Assembly: GCA_027018875.1 (NCBI GenBank)
Contig: JALUYA010000049.1
Span: 1-36,177 of the forward strand
Length of the DNA: 36,177 bases
Direction: 5' to 3'
Source: Gammaproteobacteria bacterium
Lineage (GTDB): Bacteria > Pseudomonadota > Gammaproteobacteria > JAKDMP01
The notes beneath the pieces are model-generated. The model was not told the DNA's origin, did not search any database, and worked only from the letters and a program-made list of their open reading frames with translations. The position numbers were made by a program, and so were the translations under genes. Positions 27,766 through 36,177 of the stretch are shown here, in pieces; the stretch's first letter is position 1; each line of letters begins with the position of its first letter.

Positions 27766-29046
27766 TTATTGCCCCCCGCGGGAACTCCTTACATACTGGA
27801 TCCAGCTCAATGCATCTTTATGCAAGGCTTTACTCCGGGCCGCGGTTTTGAATGCCTTGAGAGCCAAATTCCAGTTTTTTTGTTCGAATGCCGCCTCCCC
27901 CAGAACCAACCAGGCGCGGCCCGGCTGCTTGAGCCCCCCTTTTTGGAGTGCATTGCGTGCCGCGACTACTGCCTGGGGATAATCTCTCTGATTCAGGTAG
28001 ATCGAGGCCATTCGCAGATAGGTTTTACCCGAATTGGACAATTCCGCCTCGCGCCCCAGGGCTTGAAGTGCCCGGTTCCATGCGCGCGCTGCAATCCATG
28101 CCTCCGCAAGGGTTTCGTAGTTAGCCGGCTCCTTCGGAATAATGCCCTTCTTCAAACCGGATGCCACAACTTTCGCCGCCTTGTAAGGCGCCTTGAATTC
28201 CAGGTACAGGCTCGCCAGCTGCATGTAGTCATCCTTGCTTTTCAACATGCCTTGCTTATACATCAGCCCATATACGGACGTCGCGCGATCATCCCTATTA
28301 AGGAGCAGGTAGGTATTGGCAAAGTAGCCCCAGAAATTTCGATCCTTGGGCCAATGAGAGACTAGCTTCTTGGCAACCAGGTTAGCTTTCTTGAAATTCT
28401 TCAGCTTGTAAACAACCACGAACCAGTTTTGGTACCAACTCTTGTGCGGCGACTTTGCTTCCCGGATCGCCCGGGAGATATACCTGTCGGCATTGGGATA
28501 GTCACGCTTAAACGAATAGGCCAAACCCATGCGGTACCAAAGATCGGGCTTGATTGGTTGCTTACTCTTTTTCCTTCGCGCAATCACCTGTCGATACAAG
28601 TGAATGGCATCATCGTAGCGACTCTTGCTTAAGTAAAGAGTCGCCAACTGGGAAATCACCGATTCCTGGCTTTGCGGCTGCAGGGAATTCAGCTTGACGA
28701 CCTTGGCCAAGTAGGGAATGGCCGCACCATAGCGCTTCTCCAACAGGTAATTCTGCGCGATCAACTGGAGGACCAGCGCATGGGCGAACTTACTTTCCCG
28801 TCTCGCCCGTGGCAAAATTTCCTCCAATATCGTGATCGCCTTTTTATACTGGCTGTTTTTCCCCATCATCAACTTCTGCGCCCGCTCGATCTGCGTATAG
28901 GTCGGCTTGCTGAGCGTATAGGAGTTAACTTTCCCGCCGCCACCTGAGCCCTGGGCATAGGCAATCCCGGGCAGGCCGAAACTCACCGCCAACCCGAACC
29001 CCAGAATCGCGGCCAACAGCCCCCGGCGCATCGAGCGAAGATTCAT
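27766..29046 (-). CDS. TPR-repeat lipoprotein-free periplasmic protein of the TonB operon
   Basis: 426 residues from ATG 29046 (GGAG 8 bases upstream; a GTG at 29079 overlapping the tonB stop is the alternative). A signal peptide (RRGLLAAILGFGLAVSFG, ending at AYAQ) is followed by helical TPR-like repeats over almost the whole length, such as YDDAIHLYRQVI, DYPQAVVAARNALQ and NWNLALKAFKTAA. No lipobox is evident. It follows tonB by 25 bp. In Vibrio TonB2-type loci a TPR protein sits in the same place, so a helper role in TonB-dependent uptake, as scaffold or partner of TonB/TtpC, is likely, but the molecular function is not established. Confidence 0.85.
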   Translation of the reverse strand: MNLRSMRRGLLAAILGFGLAVSFGLPGIAYAQGSGGGGKVNSYTLSKPTYTQIERAQKLMMGKNSQYKKAITILEEILPRARRESKFAHALVLQLIAQNYLLEKRYGAAIPYLAKVVKLNSLQPQSQESVISQLATLYLSKSRYDDAIHLYRQVIARRKKSKQPIKPDLWYRMGLAYSFKRDYPNADRYISRAIREAKSPHKSWYQNWFVVVYKLKNFKKANLVAKKLVSHWPKDRNFWGYFANTYLLLNRDDRATSVYGLMYKQGMLKSKDDYMQLASLYLEFKAPYKAAKVVASGLKKGIIPKEPANYETLAEAWIAARAWNRALQALGREAELSNSGKTYLRMASIYLNQRDYPQAVVAARNALQKGGLKQPGRAWLVLGEAAFEQKNWNLALKAFKTAARSKALHKDALSWIQYVRSSRGGQ

Positions 29047-29071: not shown

Positions 29072-29755
29072 TCAGCCACCCTGTGATGCCTCCCCCCGTG
29101 GAATCCTGAATTGAATGGGTTGACAGACCGGCCGGGTCGCTACGGGCTTGCCATTGACTTTTCTCGGGAAAAATTTCCACTGTAAAATATTCTTGAGTGC
29201 CGCCTGTCCGAGCATCCGCCGCACCTGGGGCGTGCTGGCACGCTTCACATAGGGGCTGGAAACCGACCCGTCGGGCTCTACGGTAAAGCACACATACACG
29301 CTTCCCTGAACCCCCTGGTACGCCGCTTGCGGGGGATACAGCGGAGCAATCCGCACCATTGGGGTCAAGGGGGCATATCCCGAGGTATTTGTCGGCGGCG
29401 CGTAGTTTCCCACCACCACCCCGGTACCGCCAAAGGAAACCCCGCTTAATTTCACATTAAGGCTGCGGCTACGGTTTTGTACCGCATTCGCAGCCGTGGT
29501 CTGTATCTGCGTCTTTGGTGGCGGATTCTTCGGCTTTGGTGGGGGCTTGGGCAAATTATAATTCTTGGTCCGTACCTTCGACTCGCGCTGCACCTGGACG
29601 AAGTTCACCAAGTTCACGGTCGTCGCACTGACCTTGACCTGCCGGTTAGTCGAAATGAACTGGTGCATAAGCAGAAACAGACCCACCGCGATGACGCCTC
29701 CGCCGATCACGGCAACAACAAAACGGATATCACCAATCAGTCTGCGCATGGTCAT
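29072..29755 (-). CDS. tonB: TonB-family energy transducer
   Basis: 227 residues. An N-terminal membrane anchor (about 11-33), a proline/lysine-rich periplasmic span (LPKPPPKPKNPPPK, about 68-81) and a C-terminal TonB domain (about 135-222; PLYPPQAAYQGVQGSVYVCF and LQWKFFP). It carries proton-motive energy from ExbB/ExbD to TonB-dependent receptors in the outer membrane, such as siderophore or B12 transporters. ATG 29755 overlaps the exbD2 stop (ATGA), and GGAGG lies in front of it. The short proline region and the TtpC/DUF3450 context put it in the TonB2-like group. The receptor it serves is not in the window. Confidence 0.92.
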   Translation of the reverse strand: MTMRRLIGDIRFVVAVIGGGVIAVGLFLLMHQFISTNRQVKVSATTVNLVNFVQVQRESKVRTKNYNLPKPPPKPKNPPPKTQIQTTAANAVQNRSRSLNVKLSGVSFGGTGVVVGNYAPPTNTSGYAPLTPMVRIAPLYPPQAAYQGVQGSVYVCFTVEPDGSVSSPYVKRASTPQVRRMLGQAALKNILQWKFFPRKVNGKPVATRPVCQPIQFRIPRGEASQGG

Positions 29756-30165
29756 GAACCTCCGACCGACTTGATCTTGGCCGCCAGAGATACCTGTGTC
29801 GCTCCCCCGAGTTTGGCCTCGCCCATCACCTTAACCACCAGGCCGGTGCTGGCACGGCGATCCGCAACGATGACCACGTTACCTTTCGGCGCCTGCGCAC
29901 GGGCCGCTTCGACCAACCCGGGAATCTGGTTCAGCTTGATCTGTTCCTTGTTCATCCATACCTGCCCGCTCGAGGTAACGGCAATCAGAATGCTGGAACG
30001 CAATACATGCGCCGTCACCGCCTTTGGCTGTTCAACCACAGCTCCGGGCGGGCGAACGAAGGAAGTAGTCACAATAAAGAAGATAAGCAGAATGAAAATC
30101 ATATCCAACATCGAGGTGATGTCGAGTTCCGCCTCCCCCTCCTGTGTTGCGTGACGTCGTGCCAT
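29752..30165 (-). CDS. exbD: ExbD-family biopolymer transport protein (second copy)
   Basis: 137 residues from ATG 30165 (AGGA 6 bases upstream). A single inner-membrane helix with the proton-path aspartate D21 in SMLDMIFILLIFFIV, then a periplasmic domain. Its N-terminus is nearly the same as that of the upstream exbD (ARR...GEAELDITSMLDMIFILLIFFIV), but the periplasmic parts differ (PPGAVVEQPKAV against VSGLNVSRPQAS). So the operon carries two ExbD paralogues that may form a mixed dimer. Gap to the first exbD is 16 bp. Confidence 0.92.
   Translation of the reverse strand: MARRHATQEGEAELDITSMLDMIFILLIFFIVTTSFVRPPGAVVEQPKAVTAHVLRSSILIAVTSSGQVWMNKEQIKLNQIPGLVEAARAQAPKGNVVIVADRRASTGLVVKVMGEAKLGGATQVSLAAKIKSVGGS
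30098..30126. repeat. 29-bp direct repeat, copy in exbD2
   Basis: Identical to 30520-30548 in exbD1. It codes for the start of the transmembrane segment and the preceding DITSM. Flanking bases on both sides are similar but not identical. Confidence 0.85.
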
Positions 30166-30181
30166 GGAATTCCTCTTGAGG

Positions 30182-30589
30182 TCAGGACTCAGTAGTTGCG
30201 ATCGAGACTTTCTTGGCCCCGGCCTGGCGCGCTTGGTCAATCACCTGCACCAAGGTTCCCGCCCGCGATACCGGGCTCGCCGCCACCACCACCTGGGCAT
30301 CAGGTTTACCGGCGAGGTTCTTTTCCACCTCCGCGCGCACCGCCACCAGGCCGACCTTGCGTCCGTTGATGACGATCACCCCCCCCGGTTGAATCTCGAT
30401 CAGTACGATCTTGCTTTCCTTGACCACCTTCTGGGAAGAGGCCTGCGGGCGGCTGACATTCAGACCCGACACATGGATAAAAGATGTACTCACAATGAAA
30501 AAAATCAGCAGAATAAAGATCATATCCAACATCGAGGTGATGTCGAGCTCCGCCTCCCCACCTGGCTTTTCGAAACGTCTGCGTGCCAT
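30182..30589 (-). CDS. exbD: ExbD-family biopolymer transport protein (first copy)
   Basis: 135 residues from ATG 30589, with GAGGAG 6 bases upstream and 10 bp after exbB. One transmembrane helix with the conserved aspartate D22 (MLDMIFILLIFFIV), then a periplasmic domain ending SIATTES. It works with ExbB and TonB as the proton-driven motor of the outer-membrane uptake system. The protein is paralogous to the next gene, with a shared 29-bp identical stretch. Confidence 0.93.
   Translation of the reverse strand: MARRRFEKPGGEAELDITSMLDMIFILLIFFIVSTSFIHVSGLNVSRPQASSQKVVKESKIVLIEIQPGGVIVINGRKVGLVAVRAEVEKNLAGKPDAQVVVAASPVSRAGTLVQVIDQARQAGAKKVSIATTES
30520..30548. repeat. 29-bp direct repeat, copy in exbD1
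   Basis: Partner of 30098-30126; the two copies are exactly the same over 29 bp and are 422 bp apart. Confidence 0.85.
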
Positions 30590-30599
30590 CGGTTACTCC

Positions 30600-31121
30600 T
30601 CAGAAATACCGCAGGCTGTCTTCGAGATCTTCTGCTGCGGAACGGGCCCGCTTGTCCACCGCATAGGTGAAATAAAGCGTGAAGACGGCCACTGTCAGCG
30701 CCGACATGGTCGGGATAGTGGCGGCCGAAACCCCGTGCGCCATTGCCCGAGCGTTACTCGTACCCATGGAGGCCACCACCTCGAAAACCTGCATCATGCC
30801 GGTGACCGTCCCGAGCAAGCCCAAAAGCGGGATAATGGCAACCAGGGTCTTGATAAAAAAGATCCCGCTGTGAATCTCCTGCGACGCTTCGGAAAGCATC
30901 TTCTCCCGCACCCGCCGGGCATACCAGGAGGTGGTGTCCGTCCGATTTTCCCATACTTCAATGACTTCGCGGCGGCGTTTCGGGAACACCAGAACCAGAT
31001 ACCAGTAGCGCTCGATGATCATCGCCCAAAGCCAAATCGTAGTTGCCAAAATGGGCCACAGGACAATGCCTCCGGCTTCGAAGTAGTTCCTGAGATCAAC
31101 AAATAACTGCTGAAAGATCAT
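30600..31121 (-). CDS. exbB: ExbB/TolQ-family proton channel subunit
   Basis: 173 residues from ATG 31121, overlapping the ttpC stop by 4 bp (ATGA), with AAGG just upstream. Three transmembrane helices are expected: about 18-38, 88-112 (LLGLLGTVTGMMQVF, the conserved TolQ/ExbB segment) and 135-155. It forms the channel around ExbD. It is shorter than E. coli ExbB (about 244), as usual in TonB2-type systems. It belongs with the upstream larger ExbB-like TtpC, so the complex may combine both. Confidence 0.93.
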   Translation of the reverse strand: MIFQQLFVDLRNYFEAGGIVLWPILATTIWLWAMIIERYWYLVLVFPKRRREVIEVWENRTDTTSWYARRVREKMLSEASQEIHSGIFFIKTLVAIIPLLGLLGTVTGMMQVFEVVASMGTSNARAMAHGVSAATIPTMSALTVAVFTLYFTYAVDKRARSAAEDLEDSLRYF

Positions 31122-32512
31122 CGGTTCGCCTTCTCCGCCTGCGCGGCAATAATCCCAGCGCTTTGCTCCTCTAGGATTTGCACCTGCTTGCGACTCATAC
31201 TCTGGATCCAACTGTGCAGGGCGACAAGGGGTATTGCCGTTACCAAGCCTTCCACCGTGGTCACGAGGGCATAGGAGATACCCTGCGCCATGTAAGCCGG
31301 ATTGCCGGTACCGAACAACGTGATCGAGGTAAAGGTCTGAATCATTCCGATAACGGTTCCCAACAGACCGAGCAGCGGTCCGATTGCGGCGATGAGCTTG
31401 ATAAAGTTCTGCCACGACTCGATGGCCGGAACCTCCTTCATGATCGCCTCGTCGAGCTTCAGGGTCAGCGTCTCGACATCGTCCTTGCGATTCTGGTCAT
31501 AGACCGCGAGCACACGCCCCAAGGCATTGTCCATGTTCGGAGTTCCCGATTTCAACTGGCGCTTGATCTTGATGCTAGACAGCCCGAGTGCAATCACCCG
31601 CTCTAGAACGGCCAGGAGCGCCAGCGCAAACAGCACCAGGATCGAATATCCCACCGTGCCGCCTTCCCGTACCCGTCCCAAAAAGGTCGGCACCTGGATC
31701 AACAGGGTGAGCAACTGCCCACGCAGCGGATCGATACCGAAGCCGACCAGTCCATTGCTTGCATTGTTCAGCTTGGCCGCGCTGGAAGTGAACCGTCCGG
31801 CCGGCTGTCGGGCAATAACCACCAACGCGTTGGAGGAAGGCTCATACTGAAGATACTTCCCGCCCATAACGACATTGAAGGTGCCTACCCGAACGACATC
31901 CCGCTTCACCTTGGTGCCATTGACCAAGGTGACCGTGGCGGGAAACTTGACTACTTTCCCCTGCGCCACCATCTCCCGCAGTATCCCGTACCACAGTTCT
32001 TTCAGCTTTTGAATCGAAGGTAATGCCTTGCTGGCCGCGAGTTTCACCGCAAACAGGTTGCGGTTCGGATATTGCGCGGAAATAATGGAATTTCTGAGAG
32101 ATCCCACGAACTGCCCTGAAACCTGGCGTACGGTACCGAACACCTCACCCAAATTCCCCTCTCGAGCATGCAGGGTTGTCGTCAGGTTTTCCAGGGTTTT
32201 TTCATTGCTATTGAAAATTTTCTGCATCTGTTTGGTACGGGCGGTTTCCGCCGCAAGTTCGCTCTCGGCCCGATCCAAGAGTGCCTTTTGCTGATCCCGG
32301 CTTACCAGAAATTTACGTACTCTCGCCTTGTCAGCAGCGGTCTGTCGATTAAGATCAGCCTTGACCTCGCGCAACAACTGGGACAACGTCGCGGGGGCGG
32401 AGGAGACGGCGTTGGCCGGGCTCGCTGGAGCCGCCGATGCACTTCCCATCGGTAAGGCGGCAAGCCCGAGGAATAAAGGAATCCACTGTATGTATTTCTG
32501 CATATATTTCAT
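31118..32512 (-). CDS. TtpC-like protein: signal peptide, coiled coil and MotA/TolQ/ExbB domain
   Basis: 464 residues from ATG 32512 (AGGAG about 9 bases upstream); a GTG at 32533 overlapping the previous stop is the alternative and would add 7 residues. An N-terminal signal sequence (WIPLFLGLAALPMGSASA) leads to a coiled-coil periplasmic region (about 43-115) and a folded domain to about 245; the C-terminal part (about 290-455) holds the ExbB/TolQ membrane helices, including GPLLGLLGTVIGMIQTF. This is the architecture of TtpC, described in Vibrio as an extra component needed by the TonB2 system. It follows DUF3450 by 17 bp and precedes exbB with a 4-bp overlap. Confidence 0.88.
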   Translation of the reverse strand: MKYMQKYIQWIPLFLGLAALPMGSASAAPASPANAVSSAPATLSQLLREVKADLNRQTAADKARVRKFLVSRDQQKALLDRAESELAAETARTKQMQKIFNSNEKTLENLTTTLHAREGNLGEVFGTVRQVSGQFVGSLRNSIISAQYPNRNLFAVKLAASKALPSIQKLKELWYGILREMVAQGKVVKFPATVTLVNGTKVKRDVVRVGTFNVVMGGKYLQYEPSSNALVVIARQPAGRFTSSAAKLNNASNGLVGFGIDPLRGQLLTLLIQVPTFLGRVREGGTVGYSILVLFALALLAVLERVIALGLSSIKIKRQLKSGTPNMDNALGRVLAVYDQNRKDDVETLTLKLDEAIMKEVPAIESWQNFIKLIAAIGPLLGLLGTVIGMIQTFTSITLFGTGNPAYMAQGISYALVTTVEGLVTAIPLVALHSWIQSMSRKQVQILEEQSAGIIAAQAEKANR

Positions 32513-32529
32513 TTTCGCCTGCTCCTGCT

Positions 32530-33330
32530 TCACTGCGCGGACTGACCGGCCTGCGCCTGCTGTGGCGCCGACACGGGCAGAATCAACATCTTGGGCGAGG
32601 TTTGTTTACGAGCCACTTGCAGTCCCTGCACCACCGCGGCGCGGAATCCATTCTCGACGACCCAGCGCCGCGTCCGCTGATCCCAGCAGCCGGTCTGCGA
32701 TTGATCCAGAGTCTGGTAGCAAAGCACTACTCGCCCAATGCGCAAGAAATCAACGGTCTGGGTTTTCCCATTGACCTCCAGCGAACCTCGATAGGCCGCT
32801 ATCGTCCGCCCTGCCTGAAGCTCTCTCTGGTAGGCGCTGGTAATCAGGCGGTATTTCTCCGCAACCGAGACATCGGAATTACCCATCTCATCTTCCAGCT
32901 TCTGTGCCTCCCGTTCGCGCTGTTTTAACCGATAGGGCACATCGAGCTTGATGAAATTCTTCAACCCGGCAATCATCTGTTCCATTAAGGGGACGATGCC
33001 GTGTTCAACGTCGCTGATATGGCCCATCTGCTCATTAAGCGATTTGATGCGACTCTGCTGATTGGTGATCAACTGTTGCAGGTTGGCATTGTATTTCTTT
33101 AACTGCCTCAACTGCTGTTCAACCATTAAATACCGGTTCAACAGCCGCTGGGTTTGGCTCGACAGTTTGTTGATGGTTTGCTGTGCCGCGGCCGCATTGG
33201 TCACGATCATGCGCTGAGTTTTGACGGACTGATCCAACTGCTGCTGTTGCGCCGACGCAGCAGGAGCGACCGCTACCAGCACCAAGCCGGTAAACAGCAC
33301 CCCAAGTCCCCTGAAAGCCGATCTTGGCAT
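32530..33330 (-). CDS. DUF3450 family periplasmic coiled-coil protein
   Basis: 266 residues from ATG 33330 (AGGT 6-7 bases upstream); translation upstream of this Met in the same frame is not protein-like. It starts with a signal peptide (GVLFTGLVLVAVAPAASAQ), followed by a long helical, Gln-rich coiled coil (about 30-140), the conserved YRLKQRER region and a beta-rich end (VNGKTQTVDFLRIGR). DUF3450 proteins are found at the head of TtpC-ExbB-ExbD-TonB operons; their task is not known but the location suggests a periplasmic part of the energising complex. First gene of the operon here. Confidence 0.87.
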   Translation of the reverse strand: MPRSAFRGLGVLFTGLVLVAVAPAASAQQQQLDQSVKTQRMIVTNAAAAQQTINKLSSQTQRLLNRYLMVEQQLRQLKKYNANLQQLITNQQSRIKSLNEQMGHISDVEHGIVPLMEQMIAGLKNFIKLDVPYRLKQREREAQKLEDEMGNSDVSVAEKYRLITSAYQRELQAGRTIAAYRGSLEVNGKTQTVDFLRIGRVVLCYQTLDQSQTGCWDQRTRRWVVENGFRAAVVQGLQVARKQTSPKMLILPVSAPQQAQAGQSAQ

Positions 33331-33440: not shown

Positions 33441-36177
33441 TTACATATTGCGCCGATACCGCCCACCAACGCCATACAGGGCATGGGTAATTTGGCCCAG
33501 GGAACAGCATTTAACCGCTTCCATCAATGCGGCAAACAGATTGTTCCCTGCAGCCGCGGCTTGTTGCAGCCGTTCCAATGCAGCACCCGATTCGGCCCGA
33601 TGGCGCGCATGAAAAAACTGCAATTCCTCTATTTGCCCCTGTTTTTCAGCCTCCGTAGAACGAATCAGCGGCACTGCGCCGCCACTTTCTTTCTGATCCT
33701 TGCGGGGCAAAAAAGTATTGACTCCCACGATCGGCAGATCGCCGGAATGCTTGCGTCGTTCGTACTCCAGACTTTCTTCCTGGATCTTGCCACGTTGATA
33801 CATGGTTTCCATCGCCCCCAGTACTCCACCGCGATCGGAAAGCCGGTCGAACTCCGCGTATACCGCCTCCTCGACCATATCAGTCAAACGTTCGATTATG
33901 AACGCACCCTGCAAGGGATTTTCATTCTTGTTCAGCCCCAACTCCTGGTTGATGATCAACTGGATCGCCACGGCCCGACGCACACTCTCCTCGGTAGGCG
34001 TGGTAACGGCTTCATCGTAGGCGTTGGTATGCAATGAGTTACAGTTATCGTAAAGTGCGTAGAGCGCCTGCAGAGTCGTGCGGATATCGTTGAACTGGAT
34101 CTCCTGGGCATGCAGACTACGGCCCGATGTCTGAATGTGGTACTTAAGCATTTGGCTACGCGGCGAGGCTCCGTAGCGATCGCGCAATGCCCGGGCCCAG
34201 ATACGCCGGGCCACCCGCCCGATAACGGCATACTCGGGATCCATCCCGTTGGAGAAAAAGAAGGAAAGATTGGGGGCGAAATCATCAATCGACATGCCCC
34301 GCGCCAGGTAATACTCAATGATCGTAAAGCCATTGGCAAGCGTAAAAGCCAATTGGGTCACCGGGTTCGCACCGGCCTCGGCGATGTGGTAACCGGACAC
34401 CGATACGCTGTAGAAATTGCGAATCCGATGTTCAATGAAATATTGCTGTACATCGCCCATCATTCGCAGTGCAAACCCGGTCGAAAAAATACAGGTATTC
34501 TGTGCCTGGTCCTCCTTGAGAATATCCGCCTGCACGGTCCCCCGGACCGCCGCCAGGGATTCCGCGCGCAACCGAGCATACGTGGTCTCATCCACCACCT
34601 GATCTCCGGAAACTCCCAACAATCCCAAGCCGGTACCATTGTGCCCGGCGGGAAGTTCACGCCGATACCGCGGCGGATTATCCCCCAGCAACCGGTGGAT
34701 CTTTGCCTCGGCTTGGCTCCAGCGCCCCGTCTCCTTCAGGTACCGTTCAACCCGCTGATCGATGGCGGCATTCATGAACATGGCCAAGATCAGGGGAGCG
34801 GGCCCATTGATCGTCATCGACACGGAGGTCGTTGGCGCATTCAGGTCAAACCCGGAATACAACTTCTTCATGTCATCAACGGTCGCGACCGATACGCCGG
34901 AGTTACCGATACGGCCATAAATATCCGGGCGCCGATCCGGATCTTCCCCATACAGGGTGGCCGAATCGAACGCGGTTGAAAGCCGCGTCGCCGGCTGTCC
35001 CTGGGACAGATAATGAAACCGCCGATTAGTCCGTTCCGGATCCCCTTCGCCGGCGAACATCCGAGTGGGATCCTCGGTAGTGCGCCGATAGGGATAGACC
35101 CCCCCCGTATAGGGATAACCGCCCGGCAAATTTTCCTTGAACAGATACCGCAGCAAATCCCCCCAGTCCCGGTACTGCGGCAGCGCCAACTTGGGGATTT
35201 TCAGGTGCGACGGTGACTCGATGTAATTTTTCCCGGTGATCGTTTGCCCGCGAACCTGATAACCATAGGTCGCGCCCGTGGCATGCTCAATCCGATCGGG
35301 CCATTTTCTAAGCAAATCAAGCCCCTCCGCACCGATTGCCTCGATCGCAGCATTGTAACGTCGGCACAGCAATACCCGGTCACCGGTCGCGGTAACCTTT
35401 ACGTCGGGAAGGGTATAAGGCTCTAGCGGAGGCGGCAACGCAGGATCCTCCAGCACCGCCAGTGCCTCGTAGAAGCTCTGTGCCGCCGACGCGGCCTCCG
35501 CACACCGCTCGATCTCCCGGCGCACCTCCCGCCCGTTGGCAGCAATCTCGGACAAATAGCGCTCGCGGGCCGGGGGGATAACTGCCGCAGCATCGCCCGA
35601 TGCCTCGGCCTCGAGCGGCGAATCCGCCCAGCGCTCGGCATCGAGCTGCAGTTTCTCGCGCAACCCCGTCACCAAGGCCGCAAACAAGGCGTTGACGCCG
35701 GGATCATTGAACCGGCTTGCCGTCGCCGGATAAACCGGTGCCATATCGGCGCCCGAGTTAAAATCCAAGTGATTGCGGCGCCATTGTCTTTTCACATCGC
35801 GCAGGGCGTCTTCTCCACCGCGTTTTTCAAATTTATTGATTACCACCAGATCGGCCGCATCGAGCATGCCGATCTTCTCGAGCTGGATCGGGCCGCCATA
35901 GTCGGCGGTCATAACATAAAGTGAAAAATCCACCAGGTCTGCAACCTCGGTATCACTCTGGCCAATACCCGCGGTTTCCAGCAGAATCAAGTCAAAGCCG
36001 CACCACTTGAGCGCCGCAAGGCTTTCCGCAATCACCGCGCTGGTTGCGGCGTGGCGGCGGCGGGTGGCAAAAGAGCGCATGTAAATACCACCCCCGGATA
36101 ATACATTCATGCGGATGCGATCCCCGAGTAATGCCCCACCGGTGCGCCAGCGCGTCGGATCTACCGCCACCACGGCT
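33441..36177 (-). CDS. icmF: Fused acyl-CoA mutase/G-protein chaperone IcmF (5' end outside window)
   Basis: About 911 C-terminal residues are visible; the frame runs off the right edge, so the B12-binding domain and the P-loop are missing. IcmF is an adenosylcobalamin enzyme that interconverts isobutyryl-CoA and butyryl-CoA, with a built-in G-protein that loads and protects the cofactor. Visible parts: VAVDPTRWRTGGALLGDRIR and LLETAGIGQSDTEVADLVD of the G domain, NKFE at the base-specificity loop, then the mutase barrel (YPYTGGVYPYRR, RPDIYGRIGNSGVSVATVDD) and the IcmF-type end ALYGVGGRYRRNM. The G-domain/mutase fusion separates it from methylmalonyl-CoA mutase. Related fusions act on isovaleryl- or pivalyl-CoA, so the substrate is not certain. 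Confidence 0.93.
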   Translation of the reverse strand, partial: AVVAVDPTRWRTGGALLGDRIRMNVLSGGGIYMRSFATRRRHAATSAVIAESLAALKWCGFDLILLETAGIGQSDTEVADLVDFSLYVMTADYGGPIQLEKIGMLDAADLVVINKFEKRGGEDALRDVKRQWRRNHLDFNSGADMAPVYPATASRFNDPGVNALFAALVTGLREKLQLDAERWADSPLEAEASGDAAAVIPPARERYLSEIAANGREVRREIERCAEAASAAQSFYEALAVLEDPALPPPLEPYTLPDVKVTATGDRVLLCRRYNAAIEAIGAEGLDLLRKWPDRIEHATGATYGYQVRGQTITGKNYIESPSHLKIPKLALPQYRDWGDLLRYLFKENLPGGYPYTGGVYPYRRTTEDPTRMFAGEGDPERTNRRFHYLSQGQPATRLSTAFDSATLYGEDPDRRPDIYGRIGNSGVSVATVDDMKKLYSGFDLNAPTTSVSMTINGPAPLILAMFMNAAIDQRVERYLKETGRWSQAEAKIHRLLGDNPPRYRRELPAGHNGTGLGLLGVSGDQVVDETTYARLRAESLAAVRGTVQADILKEDQAQNTCIFSTGFALRMMGDVQQYFIEHRIRNFYSVSVSGYHIAEAGANPVTQLAFTLANGFTIIEYYLARGMSIDDFAPNLSFFFSNGMDPEYAVIGRVARRIWARALRDRYGASPRSQMLKYHIQTSGRSLHAQEIQFNDIRTTLQALYALYDNCNSLHTNAYDEAVTTPTEESVRRAVAIQLIINQELGLNKNENPLQGAFIIERLTDMVEEAVYAEFDRLSDRGGVLGAMETMYQRGKIQEESLEYERRKHSGDLPIVGVNTFLPRKDQKESGGAVPLIRSTEAEKQGQIEELQFFHARHRAESGAALERLQQAAAAGNNLFAALMEAVKCCSLGQITHALYGVGGRYRRNM

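Follow-up and report, generated by a model that had tools for sequence, protein, structure and literature searches.

We describe here a seven-gene TonB2-type energiser operon with two adjacent exbD genes, found in a 36,177-nucleotide stretch of DNA (the window; positions 1 to 36,177 of contig JALUYA010000049.1, assembly GCA_027018875.1) from a gammaproteobacterium of the JAKDMP01 lineage. The operon occupies 33330-27766 on the minus strand in the order ttpB, ttpC, exbB, exbDa, exbDb, tonB and ttpD, and its two predicted ExbD proteins have closely matched proton-path transmembrane (TM) helices and long-separated periplasmic domains. The simplest and most likely reading, which we put forward tentatively from comparisons of these sequences, is that ExbDa and ExbDb would act as a mixed pair in one ring of the energiser. 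The new element lies in this contrast, with motor helices that match and a periplasmic split that is old.

Two ExbD proteins with a matched helix and unlike periplasmic domains

The extra ExbD, ExbDa, is encoded at 30182..30589 on the minus strand (135 aa; PF02472, 95 bits) and is followed by ExbDb, which has residues typical of single-ExbD operons, at 29752..30165 on the same strand (137 aa; PF02472, 87 bits). The two are 82% identical over the N-terminus and TM segment (28/34 aligned residues) and only 31% identical in the periplasmic part (29/94), which bears out an earlier model-made note on this DNA (the sequence-only reading) that had described them as differing there. The likeness extends to the DNA, where the matched segment forms a direct repeat: the exbDa copy (30480..30579, minus strand) is 81% identical over 100 nt to the reference copy in exbDb (30059..30158, minus strand), and 23 residues of the 24-residue TM block are common to both proteins. 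The TM aspartate is kept in all 40 paired ExbDs that we aligned, the window's included, and in 149/149 rows of single ExbDs, a set that includes the other two ExbDs of the window's genome (L075 and L076).

The two proteins differ in how closely they resemble the ExbDs of other operons. With the atypical pair locus L125 excluded, an aspartate at alignment column 124 is present in ExbDb of 19/19 pairs and in 146/149 single ExbDs, as against 5/19 for ExbDa, and a tryptophan at column 84 is present in 16/19, 120/149 and 5/19, respectively. As judged from this alignment, ExbDb is the form closest to the ExbDs of ordinary one-ExbD operons and ExbDa is a paralogue with a diverged periplasmic domain, further from the single ExbDs.

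The matching of the TM helices is seen operon by operon in the 20 loci with an adjacent ExbD pair that were recovered in our survey (see below). ExbDa and ExbDb of the same operon share 89% identity over the 24-residue block, compared with 71% for those of different operons, and none of 2000 partner shuffles reaches the within-operon value. Codon choice follows the same pattern, in that residues shared inside pairs use the same codon in 248 of 395 cases within the TM block, where 187 would be expected from codon use, and in 291 of 683 cases in the periplasmic part, where 282 would be expected. The TM same-codon rate is 63% inside pairs versus 53% across operons (55% when matched for GC content at third codon positions), again with 0/2000 shuffles reaching it. 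For the window pair, TM DNA identity is 84.7%, compared with a maximum of 79.2% in 390 cross-locus comparisons. The simplest account of these patterns would be repeated, episodic gene conversion confined to the motor segment; alternatively, the TM matching could reflect selection imposed by a pore common to both proteins, which probably acts as well.

Several observations weigh against the mixed-pair reading that draws on these patterns. The periplasmic parts are also closer inside pairs than between loci (36% versus 29%, a difference that 0/2000 shuffles reach), so that part of the TM effect is plain relatedness, and the inside-pair periplasmic same-codon rate is reached by 29 of 2000 shuffles. 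TM DNA identity stands above every cross-locus comparison in only four of the 20 loci (L095, L057, L175 and the window), and little or no TM DNA excess is seen in L206, L125, L096, L161, L219 and L220. For the window alone, the TM same-codon count of 11/21 versus 8.6 expected is not decisive. As a small control, 369 genomes were scanned with a narrow DNA pattern for tandem ExbD genes outside TtpC operons, which identified three genomes from a single family; their paired TM segments are nearly identical (24/26), and in 6/6 comparisons the orthologue is closer in DNA than the neighbouring copy. TM matching can thus arise from constraint alone, and the control speaks against a general conversion signal.

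The split between the periplasmic domains is old

In a 26-row tree of periplasmic domains, eight first-position ExbDs (those of the window, of its only same-family relative L059, and of six other loci) form one clade with support 96/96. When the two ExbDs of one locus are forced together, the approximately unbiased (AU) test gives p values of 0.019 for the window, 0.0002 for L095, 0.039 for L057 and 0.051 for L163. The 26 rows were chosen after an 85-row tree had been built, and L236_A, L149_S and L070_S were omitted although they lie inside the ExbDa group there. With these and other rows restored in a 40-row tree, the long-branch single ExbDs of L149 and L070 join the eight ExbDa sequences (ten rows, support 97/97), the AU test does not reject a clade made up of only those eight (p 0.232), and forcing own ExbDs together gives p values of 0.012 for the window, 0.003 for L095, 0.046 for L057 and 0.036 for L163. 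All of these pair tests were run after inspection of the trees, and the p values are therefore optimistic.

The window's periplasmic domains are non-sister in both sets (AU p 0.012-0.019), which argues that the extra ExbD is old, and a recent duplication within this genome is rejected on the same grounds. The split between the window's two ExbDs is thus older than this genome, though not necessarily the product of a single clean origin. First-position ExbDs that group together come from eight loci and several families, and ten changes suffice to place the labels first, second and single on the 85-row tree, versus a mean of 34.7 when they are shuffled. This larger tree is built on few columns and is poorly supported; the pair may have arisen more than once, with separate duplications possible for the alphaproteobacterial and the Woeseiaceae-type pairs.

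Distribution of the second ExbD

When 369 genomes of the class were scanned for DUF3450, 85 of them yielded a total of 103 places; these, together with one from a scan of relatives, gave 101 loci besides the window. A TtpC-alignment scan of contigs from named genomes contributed its best 80 loci by similarity, which are a sample and not a census. The total with the window is 182 loci, 178 of them distinct. A single ExbD precedes TonB or TtpD in 140 distinct loci, with the exact six-gene order in 117 of them; 20, the window counted, have an adjacent ExbD pair, and 18 have a truncated or ambiguous architecture. Four further loci have two ExbDs more than 4 kb apart and were left out of the pair count. 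The pair loci include records from Hydrocarboniphaga, Rhodothalassium, Oceanicaulis, Glycocaulis and Henriciella. One of them, L125, is atypical in having no separate ExbB detected and wider gene spacing. The operon is of a known kind, and its second ExbD is a recurrent, little-studied variation. The same scans also recovered a TtpB-TtpC-ExbB-TonB-TtpD operon with no ExbD detected (L127) and, in a metagenome-assembled genome labelled Myxococcota, two contigs that carry TtpC relatives (L170 and L181).

A proposed mixed pair in one ring and its alternatives

The E. coli motor is an ExbB pentamer with two ExbD chains inside it; the periplasmic domains of these chains dimerise symmetrically, and the dimer accepts the TonB D-box in either direction (PMC12215075). 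The helices of the paired ExbDs are kept matched within each operon, which argues that ExbDa and ExbDb would each supply a proton-path helix of one kind to ExbB-type pores of one kind. Most likely, the working state would combine one ExbDa with one ExbDb in a single ring and so present an asymmetric periplasmic dock to TonB and perhaps to TtpB and TtpC as well; given the symmetry of the E. coli dimer and its indifference to D-box direction, such a pair would abolish the symmetry and make the dock one-sided. Both TtpC and ExbB are candidates for the ring-forming protein, given the ExbB/TolQ-like fold predicted for TtpC (see below). A stronger version, which is possible but which we hold with considerable doubt, is that the heterodimer is obligate, its helix matched by repeated gene conversion while the periplasmic domains have long been separate, and that it provides a built-in asymmetric TonB dock without counterpart in the symmetric E. 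coli-type motors. We found no open-licence paper matching "ExbD heterodimer", although the idea may still be published.

The sequence-only reading had itself raised the idea that the two ExbD chains of this motor could be different. The old periplasmic split, with TM segments matched operon by operon, speaks for it indirectly; evidence from Xanthomonas does not, since exbD2 is dispensable there for iron uptake, as it also is in Flavobacterium psychrophilum (PMC3551730), which warns against assuming an obligate pair. Next in likelihood after the mixed pair is an alternative in which each of the two proteins forms homodimers, and the ExbDa and ExbDb dimers alternate in the same ring, serving different receptors or conditions. 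We regard this as somewhat unlikely, even though a shared pore would account for the matched TM segments equally well and ExbDb resembles a complete ordinary ExbD. Division of labour of this kind is suggested by Xanthomonas, where exbD1 is needed for iron uptake and exbD2 is needed for pectate lyase activity, and the authors leave a strict sharing of tasks between exbD1 and exbD2 open (PMC3551730). Two points, both of limited weight, count against it: only two Plug-domain receptors were detected in the window's genome, leaving little to specialise for, and exbDa and exbDb lie 16 nt apart in a packed operon, making separate expression unlikely.

The complete ExbB/TolQ-like fold of the TtpC model means that the operon encodes two pore-type proteins as well as two ExbDs, and the two ExbDs could therefore be divided between a ring of TtpC and a ring of ExbB, with ExbDa serving either one and ExbDb the other. 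This arrangement is improbable, because TtpC and ExbB occur with a single ExbD in 117 distinct loci and because TM helices serving different rings should diverge, whereas those of the paired ExbDs are matched inside each operon; we have set it aside on the latter ground. Least probable of all is that ExbDa is a superfluous duplicate in the course of being lost, as its greater distance from the single ExbDs and the minority status of pairs (20 of 178) might suggest, and this too was set aside, since the aspartate is retained in 40/40 paired ExbDs and the grouping of first-position periplasmic domains from several families indicates a copy that has lasted.

There is still debate over how two identical ExbD chains convert the flow of protons into a directed pull on TonB. 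If a mixed ExbDa-ExbDb pair does operate in the window's motor, its two chains would be distinguishable and each could be mutated alone, so that the part played by each of the two aspartates, and by each of the two periplasmic faces, could be told apart. Some of the 20 pair operons are in named strains (Rhodothalassium salexigens, Oceanicaulis sp. and Glycocaulis albus), making such a test practical.

Genes of the operon

The seven-gene operon is real: the Pfam matches of all seven proteins exceed the curated cut-offs, and the spacings from TtpB through TtpC, ExbB, ExbDa and ExbDb to TonB are -4, -4, 10, 16 and -4 nt, so that the genes form a tight operon and chance open reading frames are excluded. 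Together with the alignment of the TM aspartates, these data uphold the earlier description of a TonB2-like operon with TtpC, an ExbB of small size and a pair of ExbDs in which the aspartate is retained. The range given for it, 29752-33330, does span TtpB to ExbDb, but leaves outside both tonB (29072-29755) and the tetratricopeptide repeat (TPR) gene (27766 to ~29046).

All seven genes are on the minus strand. The operon is headed by ttpB (32530..33330; 266 aa with an ATG at 33330), whose product is a DUF3450 protein (PF11932, 248 bits) and whose position matches that reported for ttpB2 of Vibrio vulnificus (PMC6957404). Next is ttpC (31118..32533; 471 aa; PF01618, MotA_ExbB, 96 bits), encoding a signal or TM helix, a periplasmic coiled coil plus beta domain, and an ExbB/TolQ-like membrane domain, followed by the small form of exbB (30600..31121; 173 aa; PF01618, 74 bits). 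Downstream of the two exbD genes are tonB (29072..29755; 227 aa; PF03544, TonB_C, 60 bits) and ttpD (27766..29046), the last gene, as is ttpD2 in V. vulnificus (PMC6957404). The TtpD product matches several TPR models (for example PF00515, 62 bits, 2.3e-17); its reading frame is open from a GTG at 29079, and the likely start is an ATG at ~29046. No match to the E. coli-consensus Fur box was found in the window at three or fewer mismatches using a 19-bp consensus, a search that diverged boxes would escape.

In Foldseek, an AlphaFold2 model of TtpC (mean pLDDT 81.8) matches chains of ExbB and TolQ (best E 7.2e-7), and in this model TtpC does have a complete ExbB/TolQ-like fold. The TtpB model has no Foldseek match at E 0.001 or better. 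The TtpB profile can be aligned to the TtpC periplasmic part over 189 columns (hhalign probability 94%, E 1e-7), and in both models a long helix (about 100-120 residues) is followed by two or three short ones, then by five strands and one more helix. TtpB therefore looks like a free copy of the TtpC periplasmic module (window 31118-33330), a modelled likeness that rests mainly on the beta part, chance alignment of the coiled coils being possible. MotA-type subunits with an appended DUF3450 domain have been described (PMC12505986). In L116 and in the same-family genome (L059:201-1769), ttpD is followed by a second ttpC-like gene.

Receptors and possible substrates

The window's genome assembly is 2.2 Mb and 95% complete, and four ExbDs were detected in it: the window pair, one near msbA- and lpxK-type genes, and one near tolA- and tolB-type genes. 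Neither of the two Plug-domain receptors detected in the assembly is on the operon's contig, in agreement with the earlier statement that no receptor is encoded nearby. The receptor on contig C5 (L074:6594-8762) has its best match to a BtuB model (286 bits, under the model's cut-off of 600); its gene has a cobalamin riboswitch at the 5' end (102 bits) and lies near a gene for a periplasmic binding protein. This BtuB-like receptor is a likely client of the window motor, whose substrates are likely to be those of the two detected receptors.

Directly upstream of ttpB, at 33441-36173, is a methylmalonyl-CoA-mutase-type gene with a MeaB-like GTPase part. Methylmalonyl-CoA mutases are a B12-dependent class. 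A relative of this gene was found upstream in L095 only among 184 loci searched, many of which have little sequence upstream of ttpB. Cobalamin uptake is a reasonable guess for one job of the motor, a suggestion tempered by the presence of four other TonB_C proteins in the genome. This genome also has two open reading frames with two TonB_C domains each (L077:6680-7624, 315 aa, and L081:3999-5315, 439 aa), and no ExbB was found on the contigs that carry them.

Comparison with known systems

The operon has the gene kinds and gene order of the Vibrio TonB2 operon (ttpB2-ttpC2-exbB2-exbD2-tonB2-ttpD2; PMC6957404), in that ttpB heads it directly upstream of ttpC, TtpC has an ExbB-type proton-channel domain and is followed by a separate small ExbB (PF01618 in both), and next come ExbD with its TM aspartate, TonB, and the TPR protein TtpD in last place. 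By homology to Vibrio, it would act as a TonB2-type energiser of outer-membrane uptake. In V. vulnificus, TtpB2 and TtpD2, the DUF3450 and TPR proteins, are reported as essential for siderophore uptake, as are TonB2, ExbB2, ExbD2 and TtpC2 (PMC6957404), and the sequence-only reading's view that the first two have no assigned role has to be given up. The same six gene kinds are described in the TonB2 and TonB3 clusters of Teredinibacter (PMC10734418). The window operon differs from the Vibrio one in its two exbD genes, where Vibrio has one (PMC6957404), and in adjoining the methylmalonyl-CoA-mutase-type gene, and may also differ in having no E. coli-consensus Fur box within three mismatches; it departs from the one-ExbD form, which is usual but belongs to no published definition of these energisers.

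Tandem exbD genes after one exbB are also described in Xanthomonas (tonB-exbB-exbD1-exbD2; PMC3551730) and Stenotrophomonas (tonB1-exbB1-exbD1a-exbD1b; PMC11002078). Unlike the window operon, these clusters begin with tonB, and the accounts of them in these sources name no ttpB, ttpC or ttpD; the Xanthomonas-type order without Ttp genes is not that of the window. The Sphingobium SYK-6 operon tonB1-exbB1-exbD1-exbD2 likewise has a tandem pair in which both proteins have the essential aspartate, and neither exbD1 nor exbD2 could be disrupted; it differs in starting with tonB and in that no Ttp genes are named in its description (PMC8599685).

The AglRQS gliding motor of Myxococcus is like the window system in that a single MotA/TolQ/ExbB-type protein is combined with a pair of unlike ExbD/TolR-type proteins, and AglQ and AglS have been suggested to be two coupled subunits of one motor (PMC3169522, PMC9120999). 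It is unlike the window system in powering gliding and in its gene cluster, described as aglR, aglQ and aglS without tonB or Ttp genes (PMC3169522, PMC9120999). AglRQS is a precedent for one channel protein working with two different ExbD-like partners, as we propose for ExbDa and ExbDb.

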